Assembly (NCBI GenBank): GCA_030066085.1
Contig: JASJCI010000023.1
Coordinates: 1 to 64,000, forward strand
Length of the DNA stretch: 64,000 nt
From: Gammaproteobacteria bacterium
Lineage (GTDB): Bacteria > Pseudomonadota > Gammaproteobacteria > GCA-001735895
Reading direction: 5' to 3'
Positions 1,461 to 18,545 of this stretch are shown one piece after another (the stretch's first letter is position 1; each line of letters starts with the position of its first letter). The position numbers were made by a program, and so were the translations under genes. Below the pieces are notes generated by a model. It saw only the letters and a list, made by a program, of their open reading frames with translations. It was not told where the DNA came from and ran no database searches.

Positions 1461-1669
1461 CGAAGGATTCCCTTACCTGGTGGGGTCGGTTGGGTAGCTG
1501 ACCGAGATGTGATCGAGTTTAATACCCTTTTCGGAGGTATGTCAAAATGCCGCTGTCGATCCCGGCTAAGTCGCTCGAGACGTCGTTTTGGCATGCTCCG
1601 TCATTGGAAAAACCCCGCCAAAGAAGAGTATTATATCCGGTCGGTCCTGCGTTTTTGGGGTGACTTGTG

Positions 1670-2956
1670 ATGCTGGTGAGCGTATTGCGGCGCTTCATGC
1701 GCCACGGGAATTTGACGTTGATCGATGCCGAGGGACGGCGCCATGCCATCTGCGATCGTGAAGGTCCGACGGTCGTGATGCGAGTGACGGACAGGGCAAC
1801 CGAACGACGGCTTGCCACCAGTCGCTCGGTCTGGTGGGGGGAAGCCTACATGGACGGCAGGTTTGTGATCGAGGAAGGCAGTCTGCGCGATTTCCTCGAA
1901 ATCTACATACGTTCCGAGCGCAGCGTGCTGAACAATACCCTCTACGGCGAAGTCCAGCGCCTGTTGCACAGCCTGTTCGCTTCCTTCAGCCATTACAACC
2001 CGGTCTCGCGCGCGCGCCGCAACGTGGCTCATCATTATGATCTGTCGGGCGAACTCTACGACCAGTTTCTCGATGCCGACCGGCAGTATTCCTGTGCTTA
2101 CTTTGCCCGGGGTGACGAAAGTCTCGATACCGCGCAGCTGCTGAAAAAGCGGCATATCGCGGCCAAGCTGGATATCCATCCGGGCATGCAGGTACTCGAT
2201 ATCGGCTCGGGCTGGGGCGGCATGGCGATCTATCTCGCCACCCATCTCGATTGCCAGGTTACCGGGGTTACCTTGTCGGAGGAGCAGTACCAGCTGTCTC
2301 GGCGGCGCGTCGAAGAGGCTGGACTCCAGGACCGGGTCCGGTTCGAGCTGCGCGATTATCGCAGCCTGCAACAGAGCTTCGACCGTGTCGTCTCGGTGGG
2401 AATGCTGGAGCACGTCGGCCAGTTCCACTATCACGAGTATTTCCGCAAGCTACAGCAACTGCTCAAGCCCGACGGGGTAGCGCTGATCCACACTATCGGG
2501 CGGCAGAACAAACCGCAGCCGGTCAGCGCCTGGATCCGCAAATATATATTCCCGGGCGGTTACCTGCCGGCCGCTTCGCAGTTGTCCCGCGCGATCGAGA
2601 GTAGCGGGTTGTGGATGACCGATCTCGAGATCCTGCGACTGCACTATGCGCTGACGCTGAATCACTGGTACCGGCGTTTCATCGCCAACCGTGAACGGGT
2701 TCGACAACTATACGACGAGCGCTTCTGCCGCATGTGGGAACTCTATCTGCTGGGCAGCGAAATGATCTTTCGTCACCAGGACGTTTGCGTTTATCAAATG
2801 CAGCTGACGCGCGACGTAGCAACGCTGCCGCTGACGCGCGACTACATCTACCAAGCCGAGCAAACACTGGCCAGGGTCGACGGCACAGCGGTCGCGCCGA
2901 ACGCGCGCGGCAAGCAGCGCGAAGCGGCGCGCAGGCGAAAAATCGAAGTTGTTTGA
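1670..2956 (+). CDS. cfa: Cyclopropane-fatty-acyl-phospholipid synthase
   Basis: 428 aa, matching the family. It transfers a methylene unit from S-adenosylmethionine to cis double bonds of membrane phospholipid acyl chains. Visible features are the N-terminal lipid-binding region, the AHHYDLSGELYDQF segment (about 120-134), the SAM-binding loop VLDIGSGWGGMAIYLA (about 175-190) and the GMLEHVG active-site segment (about 244-250). ATG 1670 is preferred over GTG 1667 because GGGGTG at 1657-1662 is well placed as ribosome binding site. A weak candidate promoter (TTGGAA 1604, TATTAT 1629, 19-nt spacer) lies upstream. The last five codons and the stop (from 2941) are identical or nearly so to the start of the 156-bp repeat unit that follows, so the C-terminus may have been replaced by the repeat. 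Confidence 0.93.
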   Translation: MLVSVLRRFMRHGNLTLIDAEGRRHAICDREGPTVVMRVTDRATERRLATSRSVWWGEAYMDGRFVIEEGSLRDFLEIYIRSERSVLNNTLYGEVQRLLHSLFASFSHYNPVSRARRNVAHHYDLSGELYDQFLDADRQYSCAYFARGDESLDTAQLLKKRHIAAKLDIHPGMQVLDIGSGWGGMAIYLATHLDCQVTGVTLSEEQYQLSRRRVEEAGLQDRVRFELRDYRSLQQSFDRVVSVGMLEHVGQFHYHEYFRKLQQLLKPDGVALIHTIGRQNKPQPVSAWIRKYIFPGGYLPAASQLSRAIESSGLWMTDLEILRLHYALTLNHWYRRFIANRERVRQLYDERFCRMWELYLLGSEMIFRHQDVCVYQMQLTRDVATLPLTRDYIYQAEQTLARVDGTAVAPNARGKQREAARRRKIEVV

Positions 2957-3562
2957 CGGACGTGTCGAAGCCGCTTTGTTGCCCGCAGGACTCGCAGTGG
3001 TCTCTTTACGGGCAAACAACGCGCCGGGGCCAGGCGTGATGTCGCGGGCTACACAACACCGCCGCGTTCTCCGCGCGCTCCGCGGGAACCCGCAGCTGTC
3101 TTAGAGACTGGCCGAAGCCGCTTTGTTTCCCGCAGGGCTCGCCGAGGGCGCAGTGGTTTCTTTCCAAGTCAACAACGCGCCGGGGCCAGGCGTGATGCCG
3201 CGGGCTACACAACACCGCCGCGTTCTCCGCGTGCTCCGCGGGAAACCGAGGCTGTTTGACGGATGTGTCGAAGCCGCTTTGTTGCCCGCAGGGCTCGCCG
3301 AGGGCGCAGTGGTCTCTTTGCGGGTCAACAACGCGCCGGGATCAGGTGTGATGTCGCGGGCTACACAACACCGCCGCGTTCTCCGCGCGCTCCGCGGGAA
3401 ATCGAAGCTGTTTGACGGATGTGTCGAAGCCGCTCTGTTTCCCGCAGGGCTCGCCGAGGGCGCAGTGGTCTCTTTGCGGGCAAACAACGCGCCGGGGCCA
3501 GGCGTGATGTCGTGGGCTACACAATACCGCCGCGTTCTCCGCGTGCTCCGCGGGAAACCGGG
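2941..3562. repeat. Four tandem copies of a 156-bp repeat
   Basis: The anchor GAAGCCGCT recurs at 2967, 3114, 3270 and 3426, giving periods of 147, 156 and 156. The first unit lacks 9 bp (GCCGAGGGC) after its CCCGCAG segment. Each unit carries GCCGGG..CAGG.GTGATG, CGGGCTACACAA and CCGCCGCGTTCTCCGCG.GCTCCGCGGGAA. The units differ by scattered substitutions, so they are not recent perfect duplicates. Because 156 is 52 codons, open frames run through the array on both strands. These show 52-residue periodicity and no recognisable domain, so they are judged non-coding. The array fills the whole 647-bp gap between cfa and the cbs stop codon (3604); only about 40 bp after 3562 are unique. The G/C-rich CTCCGCG pieces resemble dispersed intergenic repeats seen in other genomes (inference). 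Confidence 0.9.
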
Positions 3563-3603: not shown

Positions 3604-4971
3604 CTAGAACATCGCCTTGCGCAGGTGGTTGATCAGGTCGATCTGCGTGATCAGGCCGTAAAACCTGTCGTCCTCGGCGATGATCGCGACCTTGTCCTGC
3701 TTGAACAGCTGCACCACCGCGTCGATACGCGCGCTCGGCGGGAGCAGTTCCAGGTCGGTTACCATGACCTCGCCGACCTTCATCTGGAAGCTGTCCTTGT
3801 CCTCGTAAATCCCGAGCAGGATGTCGGATTCGTCGATCAGGCCGGCGATGTTACCGTCCTGCATGACCGGTATCTGCGACACGTCGAACATGCGCATACG
3901 CTTGTAGGTCGTGATCAGGTTGTCATCCGGCGTGACGGTGACCATGTCGCCGCTGTCCGCCGGACGGGCGATCAGGTCGCGCAGGTCACCGTGCGATTCG
4001 CGCTCGAGCAGGCCCTGGTCGGCCAGCCAGGAATCGTTGAACGACTTGTTCAGGTACTTGTTGCCGGTGTCGCAGGCAAAGGTCAGCACGCGCTTGGGTT
4101 CGGTCTGCTCGCGGCAGTAGCGTAAGGCCGCGCCCAGCAGGGTGCCGCTGGACGAGCCGGCAATAATACCCTCGCGACGCAGCAGTTCACGCTGCAGGGT
4201 GAAAGCCTCGCGGTCGCTGATCGCGTAAGCTTTCTTGACCAGGCTGATATCGCAGATCGGCGGCATGAAATCCTCGCCGATGCCCTCGACCAGCCAGGAC
4301 GAGGCCTTCGGTGTCTTGCCGGTGTTGATGGTGTCGGCGAGGATCGATCCGACCGGGTCGGCCACGATCAGCTCGAGGTCGGGCTTGACCTCGTGGAAAT
4401 AGCGGCCGAGACCGGTGACCGTGCCGCTCGAGCCGACGCCGACCACGACCGCATCGAGATCGTTGTCCATCTGCCGCAGCATTTCGGGCCCGGTGTCGAC
4501 CTCGTGGGTTTCGGGGTTGTGCGGGTTCGAGAACTGGTCGATAAAATAGGAATTCGGGATTTCCGCGGCCAGCCGCTTGGCGTAATCCTGGTAGTACTCG
4601 GGATGTCCTTTTTGTACGTCCGAGCGGGTCAGGCGCACGTCCACGCCCATGGCGCGGATGTGGCGTATCTTGTCGGGACTCATCTTGTCGGGGATGACGA
4701 GGATGAGCTGGTAACCTTTTTGCGCGGCGACCAGGCCGAGGCCGAGCCCCGTATTGCCGGCGGTGGCTTCGATGATCGTTCCGCCAGGCTCGATCTTGCC
4801 CTCGCGTTCGGCGGCCTCGATCATGTTGACGGCGATACGATCCTTGATCGAGCCGCCCGGGTTGTCCAGCTCGAGTTTCAGGAACAGGTCGCAAGGGCCG
4901 GTGTCGAACTTGCTGAGCTTGACGATCGGCGTGTCGCCGATAAGGTCCAGTACCGAGTTAACTACGGCCAT
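3604..4971 (-). CDS. Cystathionine beta-synthase (PLP domain plus CBS pair)
   Basis: 455 aa. This PLP enzyme condenses serine and homocysteine to cystathionine, the first step of reverse transsulfuration. Lys43 in GGSIKDR is the Schiff-base lysine. TAGNTG (70-75) and GVGSSGT (178-184) bind substrate and phosphate, and GSSSGT is at 272-277. Residues about 340-455 hold two CBS motifs (VMVTDLELLPPSA and preceding), the layout of bacterial and animal CBS rather than plain cysteine synthase. There is no N-terminal haem-binding extension. It is the last gene of a minus-strand trio with 18 nt to the enolase-family gene upstream, and a gamma-lyase-type enzyme heads the trio, supporting the CBS rather than O-acetylserine sulfhydrylase reading. 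Confidence 0.88.
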   Translation of the reverse strand: MAVVNSVLDLIGDTPIVKLSKFDTGPCDLFLKLELDNPGGSIKDRIAVNMIEAAEREGKIEPGGTIIEATAGNTGLGLGLVAAQKGYQLILVIPDKMSPDKIRHIRAMGVDVRLTRSDVQKGHPEYYQDYAKRLAAEIPNSYFIDQFSNPHNPETHEVDTGPEMLRQMDNDLDAVVVGVGSSGTVTGLGRYFHEVKPDLELIVADPVGSILADTINTGKTPKASSWLVEGIGEDFMPPICDISLVKKAYAISDREAFTLQRELLRREGIIAGSSSGTLLGAALRYCREQTEPKRVLTFACDTGNKYLNKSFNDSWLADQGLLERESHGDLRDLIARPADSGDMVTVTPDDNLITTYKRMRMFDVSQIPVMQDGNIAGLIDESDILLGIYEDKDSFQMKVGEVMVTDLELLPPSARIDAVVQLFKQDKVAIIAEDDRFYGLITQIDLINHLRKAMF

Positions 4972-17447: not shown

Positions 17448-18545
17448 ATGTCTAACTTCACCATGCGTGAAATGTTGGAAGCGGGCGTGCATTTCGGCCA
17501 CCAAACCCGTTTCTGGAATCCGAAAATGGCGCCGTTCATTTTTGGCGAACGCAACAAGATTCACATCATCAACCTCGAGCAGACCATGCCGATGTGCAAG
17601 GATGCAACCGGTTACCTCGGCAAGATCGCATCGCGCAAGGGCAAGATCCTGTTCGTCGGCACCAAGCGTGCGGCATCGGACGCGATCCGCGATGAAGCGC
17701 ATCGCTGCGGTATGCCCTTCGTCAACCATCGCTGGCTTGGCGGAATGCTGACCAATTTCCGCACCGTGCGCGCCTCGATCAAGCGTCTCAAGGAACTCGA
17801 GGAGATGGCCGAAAGCAACAGCTACGAAAAGATCAACAAGAAGGAAATCCTGCAGCTGTCGCGCGAGCAGGAGAAACTGGAAAAGACGCTCGGTGGTATC
17901 AAGGATATGGGTGGTCTGCCAGACGCGCTGTTCGTGATCGACGTCGGCTACGAGAAAATCGCGGTGCAGGAAGCCGCCAAGCTCGGCATTCCGGTCGTAG
18001 GCATCGTCGATACCAACAACTCACCGGAAGATGTCGAGTACATTATTCCGGGTAACGACGATTCCATGCGCGCGATCAAGCTCTACGCCCGCCTGGCCGC
18101 TGACGCGGTGCTGGAGGGCAAGCAGAGCATCGTAACCGCGGTCGAGGGTGACGACGAACTCATCGAGATCGAGGAAGAGGCGAGCCCGGCGCCGGCTGCC
18201 GAAGCCGCTGCACCGGCTGCGGAAGCAAGCACCGCCGGCGATGCGGCGACTGAAGCCGATGCGGCTGCTGCCGAAGCCGGCGCGGACGAGGCCGGCGAGC
18301 CCGCAAGCGCCGCGCCAGCCGAAGCGCCCGAGGCGGCAGACGAAGCGGCCGCCGCAGCCCCCGCGGCTGACGACAGCGGTGAAACCGAGGCCGCTGCGCC
18401 GAAAAAGGCTGCCGCCAAGAAAGCCGCGACCAAGAAGGCTGCAACCAAGAAAGCCGCGACCAAGAAAGCCGCGACCAAGAAGGCTGCAACCAAGAAGGCC
18501 GCTACCAAGAAAGCAGCGACCAAGAAGGCCGCCGCCAAGGATTAA
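17448..18545 (+). CDS. rpsB: 30S ribosomal protein S2 with long Ala/Lys-rich C-terminal extension
   Basis: 365 aa from ATG 17448 ([27 protein letters not shown] ribosome site at 17437). Residues 1-235 are a complete S2, with [31 protein letters not shown] and [21 protein letters not shown]2 is usually about 240 aa and ends there. Here about 125 residues follow: an acidic Ala/Glu/Pro-rich linker (238-318) and then a basic tail (319-365) of repeated AAxKK units ending KKAAAKD. The tail resembles histone H1-like bacterial proteins. It is in frame without interruption, so a sequencing error is unlikely. First gene of the rpsB-tsf operon. Confidence 0.96.

Follow-up and report, generated by a model that had tools for sequence, protein, structure and literature searches.

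A four-unit tandem array between convergent cfa-like and PALP/CBS-domain genes, probably amplified from a MITE-like hairpin element

REP clusters are known to include units that recur in tandem together with variable lengths of flanking DNA, and they lie near convergent 3' ends (PMC3733652). In the pneumococcus, the BOX, RUP and SPRITE repeats are enriched between convergent genes, an enrichment that the authors of that work interpret to mean that parasitic elements are tolerated there (PMC3049150). For MITEs, the target-site duplications are reported to fade with age (PMC10969869). The locus described here lies in a stretch of 64,000 nucleotides (hereafter the window; positions 1 to 64,000 of contig JASJCI010000023.1, assembly GCA_030066085.1, of a Gammaproteobacteria bacterium), where a tandem array fills the gap between two convergent genes. 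We consider it likely that this array derives from a MITE-like hairpin element that was tandemly amplified with its flank, and that the locus is one of several belonging to the same family. As its genome contains two further arrays of this type, the array in the window represents the local habit of a known type of repeat, and not a new gene.

Anatomy of the array and its flanking genes

The gene on the left encodes a cfa-like cyclopropane-fatty-acyl-phospholipid synthase (1667..2956, plus strand, with its stop at 2956; Pfam CMAS, 2.6e-91). As a PALP/CBS-domain gene of cystathionine beta-synthase or cysteine synthase type (3604..4971, minus strand; Pfam PALP 1.6e-71 and CBS 4.4e-14) faces cfa with its stop at 3604, the array occupies a convergent gap. 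An earlier note on this DNA had described four tandem units with periods of 147, 156 and 156 bp that begin inside the cfa end, and both points were borne out. TRF reported a period of 156 with 3.6 copies, 90% matches and a score of 924 at 2993-3560, anchors GAAGCCGCT at 2967, 3114, 3270 and 3426 gave the same three periods, and the four units together span 2942-3556, the cfa frame closing within the repeat so that its final codons from 2942 are the array's left end. The likeness of 80-95% that had been claimed between the cfa end and the junction of two units was also found, as ATCGAAGTTGTTTGACGGACGTGTC, read from 2942, matches the junction of units 3 and 4 at 23 of 25 bases.

Each unit is made of a hairpin element of 110-119 bp, with terminal inverted repeats (TIRs) of 9-bp period (TTTCCCGCGGAGnnCGCGGAGnnCGCGG; CGCGGAGnn in both arms), and of a remaining 37 bp that copy the cfa tail and flank. 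Unit 1 (147 bp, 2942..3088) holds the cfa tail and flank at 2942-2978 and the element at 2979-3088, and is one 9-bp step short, the 9 bp being missing at one place in the left arm. The other three units are 156 bp long: in unit 2 (3089..3244) the flank copy lies at 3089-3125 and the element at 3126-3244, in unit 3 (3245..3400) at 3245-3281 and 3282-3400, and in unit 4 (3401..3556) at 3401-3437 and 3438-3556, homology to the array running out at ~3559, just past unit 4. The left TIR of unit 3 (3282..3313, plus strand, TTGCCCGCAGGGCTCGCCGAGGGCGCAGTGGT), which has the period-9 structure and pairs in the RNA fold, and the right TIR (3370..3401, minus strand, where it reads TTTCCCGCGGAGCGCGCGGAGAACGCGGCGGT) are identical as inverted repeats at 23/32 positions (72% over 32 nt). 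The ends of the unit are inverted repeats of each other, and it therefore folds as a long hairpin, which is what the RNA fold of one unit proposed in the earlier note gave. The 37-bp cfa-tail part has no second site in the genome, and is therefore locus DNA that was copied into the units; since the inverted-repeat ends do recur, the unit is to be seen as an element plus local flank.

Pairwise identity between units is 85.7-93.2%, too low for the array to be an assembly echo of a single identical copy. Nor is the array a product of chance, as TRF found just two non-coding arrays with a period of at least 60 across 1.12 Mb of the array's genome (a sample made of contigs with TIR matches plus others, and hence not random), namely the one in the cfa gap and one on contig C15. 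Elsewhere in the window, at 18405-18539, there is a 15/30/45-bp tandem repeat with Lys/Ala-type codons, probably coding.

Sister loci and array-free gaps in relatives

The 600-bp array found no match among 56 relatives, and a single unit, compared with 274 sampled genomes of the class, returned just short matches to the end of the element and no whole unit; within its own genome the whole unit has no other occurrence either. In three relatives (G013, G007 and G018) cfa and the PALP/CBS gene are convergent across a gap of ~11-48 bp with no array, the cfa of G013 being 68% identical to that of the array genome, and in G011 another neighbour lies downstream of cfa. The cfa orthologues, at 60-68% identity, stop within a few codons of one another without an array, and the cfa tail is poorly conserved across them. 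Because the cfa ends of congeners nearly coincide, at near-equal length, cfa was neither clearly lengthened nor shortened, and the suggestion that the repeat had overwritten or extended the gene was not upheld. The genus sample seems to consist of draft assemblies, with cfa identity of at most 68%, so that it offers no close strain showing a change in copy number.

A search of the whole genome with the TIR pattern TTCCCGCGGAGnnCGCGGAGnnCGCGG, allowing up to 3 mismatches, gave 12 matches as opposed to 0 for the reversed pattern, which still gave 0 at up to 4 mismatches. Inward-facing TIR pairs with up to 6 mismatches numbered 16 in the same non-random 1.12 Mb, compared with 0 in the control, and resolve into seven loci that share a TIR consensus. 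Besides the array of four units in the cfa-PALP/CBS gap (C14), these include an array of 3 x 229 bp at C15:39879-40540 (L080 1380-2041), in a convergent gap between what appear to be a DUF1631-like gene and sucB, and one of two units, 263-272 bp apart, at C38:46438-46925 (L079), in a convergent gap between a PilZ-like and a TauD-like gene, so that tandem arrays make up 3/7 of the loci. The other four are TIR elements, at C15:13667-13846, C16:36468-36658, C17:119009-119154 and C38:95077-95170. Among the loci resolved from TIR pairs, the two further arrays are placed at C15:39879-40488 and C38:46499-46904. Element spans range over ~95-191 bp, and the TIR arms from 25 nt at 96% (C16) to 32 nt at 72-75% (C14 and C38). 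In both C14 and C38 the length of the left arm differs between units by exactly 9 bp. The right terminus of unit 3 reappears at C16, C38, C17 and C15; comparison of the cores between loci gave no match above chance, and no target-site duplication was found at the four single-copy elements. A further TIR pair, at C47:10603, lies inside a gene and was taken as chance. The odd array in the window becomes in this way one member of a genome-wide pattern. The earlier note had proposed a search for single copies of the unit, and held that a unit found nowhere else, with relatives lacking the array, would speak against its reading: the whole unit is indeed unique and the relatives are array-free, but its terminal inverted repeats are found again elsewhere in the genome.

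That such elements reach these gaps separately in different species is best supported by the C15 site, where sequence comparison points to a second insertion. The neighbours of the C15 array are convergent in nearly all congeners, and the stop-to-stop gap is ~13 bp in most of them (in the closer congeners, 11-19 bp for the most part). In G003 (C434, L177), however, a hairpin with TIR TTCTCGCGGAGGCGCAGGG occupies the sucB gap, which measures 203 bp; the core of this hairpin is different, as is its TIR subtype. G003 has a second element of that same subtype, and this one too lies in a convergent gap. Both the cfa gap and the sucB gap are found empty in relatives.

Four Y1_Tnp (RAYT-type) genes are present in the array genome (G000), at C12:994, C25:5902, C38:4149 and C38:109219. 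The nonamer TIR is absent within ~1.5 kb at all four, and RAYT transposases were rejected as the movers, being present in the genome yet without linked TIRs. GxxExxY cargo genes are companions of such ends; they are absent from the array genome and from 19 relatives.

Similar ends were also sought more widely. A scan of GTDB genomes for the exact TIR returned two loci, one in Myxococcales, which was set aside as it has no matching second arm, and one in Phycisphaerales. The latter (MAG contig JAJDDM010000150.1, L155 4374-4853) is an element of ~480 bp with period-9 CGCGGAGnn ends and an open frame of 107 aa that has no Pfam match, and nonamer ends may carry small cargo genes. In genomes of the class, CGCRGAGnn/CACAGAGnn hairpins or runs, apparently intergenic, were observed in G159 (L153), G299 and G189 (L084-L086), G145 (L156) and G099 (L157). 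Plasmid and phage collections gave no match, viral contigs searched for the exact TIR gave none, and an exact-string text search of one open-access collection found no relevant paper on the nonamer ends.

Origin of the array and alternative readings

The history that we favour would begin with a non-coding hairpin element of ~119 bp, with imperfect TIRs of 9-bp period, lodging in the few bases between the two convergent stops. The segment that runs from the final codons of cfa as far as the element's right end would then have been duplicated head to tail at GAAA microhomology, and slippage or unequal exchange could have expanded it to four units. The left breakpoint in cfa, GCGAAAA|ATCGAAG, resembles GCGGGAA|A at the end of the element, and the units join at GCGGGAA|AnCG. 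Informative sites group the units in conflicting ways (three support 14|23, two 13|24 and one 12|34), a pattern consistent with exchange between units or with recurrent mutation. If the two arms began alike, the element would be older than the array, as the arms are 72% identical and the units 86-93%. The locus would be one of several, within a MITE-like family specific to this species, where element and local flank have turned into a tandem array, and the hairpins might have a mild role at the RNA level, by giving paired 3' ends to both convergent transcripts, those of cfa and of the PALP/CBS gene. A broader claim, namely that nonamer-TIR hairpins are a distinct, uncatalogued mobile class that prefers gaps between convergent stops, keeps nothing but its ends while its cores are arbitrary, and promotes duplication of the element with host flank, is one that we put forward tentatively and with more doubt than conviction.

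Alternatively, the hairpins might be immobile products of the host, serving as bidirectional terminators or in 3'-end stability, which originated in convergent gaps and owe their amplification to selection. Such an origin would be in line with their position, since 5/7 loci lie in convergent gaps compared to 99/554 background gaps (p ~0.003-0.007, in a post hoc test with a small count and crude gene calls), even though parasitic repeats show convergent enrichment too (PMC3049150). It would also be in line with folding of both strands of the element and with the distribution of variable columns, 4/62 in the stem arms vs 25/94 in the rest of the unit (p = 0.0014), which suggests that the stem is maintained; these conserved arms, like the folding of elements elsewhere far beyond shuffles (z = -8.3 at C16 and -5.2 at C17), speak for the favoured history as well. 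The array units themselves fold only moderately better than shuffles on the plus strand (z -0.8 to -3.9), a point against that history, and no U tract of terminator type was found after the hairpin, a point against both readings, so that a terminator role for the array is no more than possible. The only Rfam matches, to families of microRNAs and trypanosome snoRNAs, fell far short of the gathering score and were taken as chance. The orthologous gaps of congeners are ~13 bp long and have no hairpin, and a shared terminal sequence beside unrelated genes is hard to square with independent origin. Overall, we see a host-made origin as unlikely.

Less likely still is a plain minisatellite, in which a unique intergenic stretch was tandemly duplicated by chance and the palindrome is incidental; the absence of the whole unit from the rest of the genome and from the other genomes sampled would agree with it, but the unit terminus matches the inverted-repeat ends at six other loci, two of which are also tandem arrays. 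Finally, a repeat-encoded peptide with 52-residue repeats, made from one of the open frames of the array (169 aa on the plus strand, 128 aa on the minus strand), can for practical purposes be dismissed, as variable sites in units 2-4 are spread evenly over the codon positions (10/7/9, with no excess of third-position change of the kind a protein-coding repeat would show), the GC3 contrast of the frames is 0.09 vs 0.34-0.49 in the flanking genes, and Pfam gave sub-cut-off matches only. The array is non-coding, a coding repeat being ruled out by that even spread, and, as the earlier note had supposed, the frames open on both strands seem to follow from the period being a multiple of 3.

If the genome-wide pattern holds, it offers a testable model for the growth of bacterial hairpin repeats between convergent genes, the elements of which are insertions made separately into one and the same 13-bp gap in two species, TIR arms that change by 9-bp steps, and a tandem growth in which the end of the adjacent gene is copied too. 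For annotation there is a warning as well, in that both-strand open frames in such arrays are not genes.

Comparison with known repeat families

Several features of the element are those of MITEs such as QMITE1/2 of Coxiella and Chunjie of Geobacter (PMC10969869), including a size below 500 bp, TIRs, lack of coding capacity, an intergenic location, size variation, copies with common ends at unrelated loci, and sites that are empty in relatives. A target-site duplication and a related core between loci were not found, and the only candidates looked at for a cognate transposase, the RAYT genes, are not linked to the TIRs. Because these features are only partly present, we call the element MITE-like and file it as neither MITE nor REP. 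The BrickBuilt MITE of Porphyromonas gingivalis (PMC4596501) is also an intergenic, species-specific tandem array on a MITE-like element, but it has a 23-bp minisatellite within the element, whereas in the cfa gap the unit is the whole element plus flank. BOX, RUP and SPRITE (PMC3049150) resemble the array as small folded repeats in convergent gaps, and BOX has tandem boxB modules; their sequences are different, however, and in BOX it is the inner module that varies, while the array varies in element plus host flank. Like the array, GTAG- or CGTC-tagged REP/BIME sequences (PMC3733652) are short palindromes that lie near 3' ends where the gap between genes is convergent or unidirectional. They are 20-40 bp long and of high copy number, in contrast to a family of ~95-191 bp at about seven loci, and the element of the array, at 110-119 bp, ends in TTTCCCGC without a GTAG or CGTC tag and is not accompanied by the RAYT linkage expected of REPs, given the four unlinked RAYT loci. 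The closest published pattern is that of REP clusters reiterated in tandem with their flank (PMC3733652).
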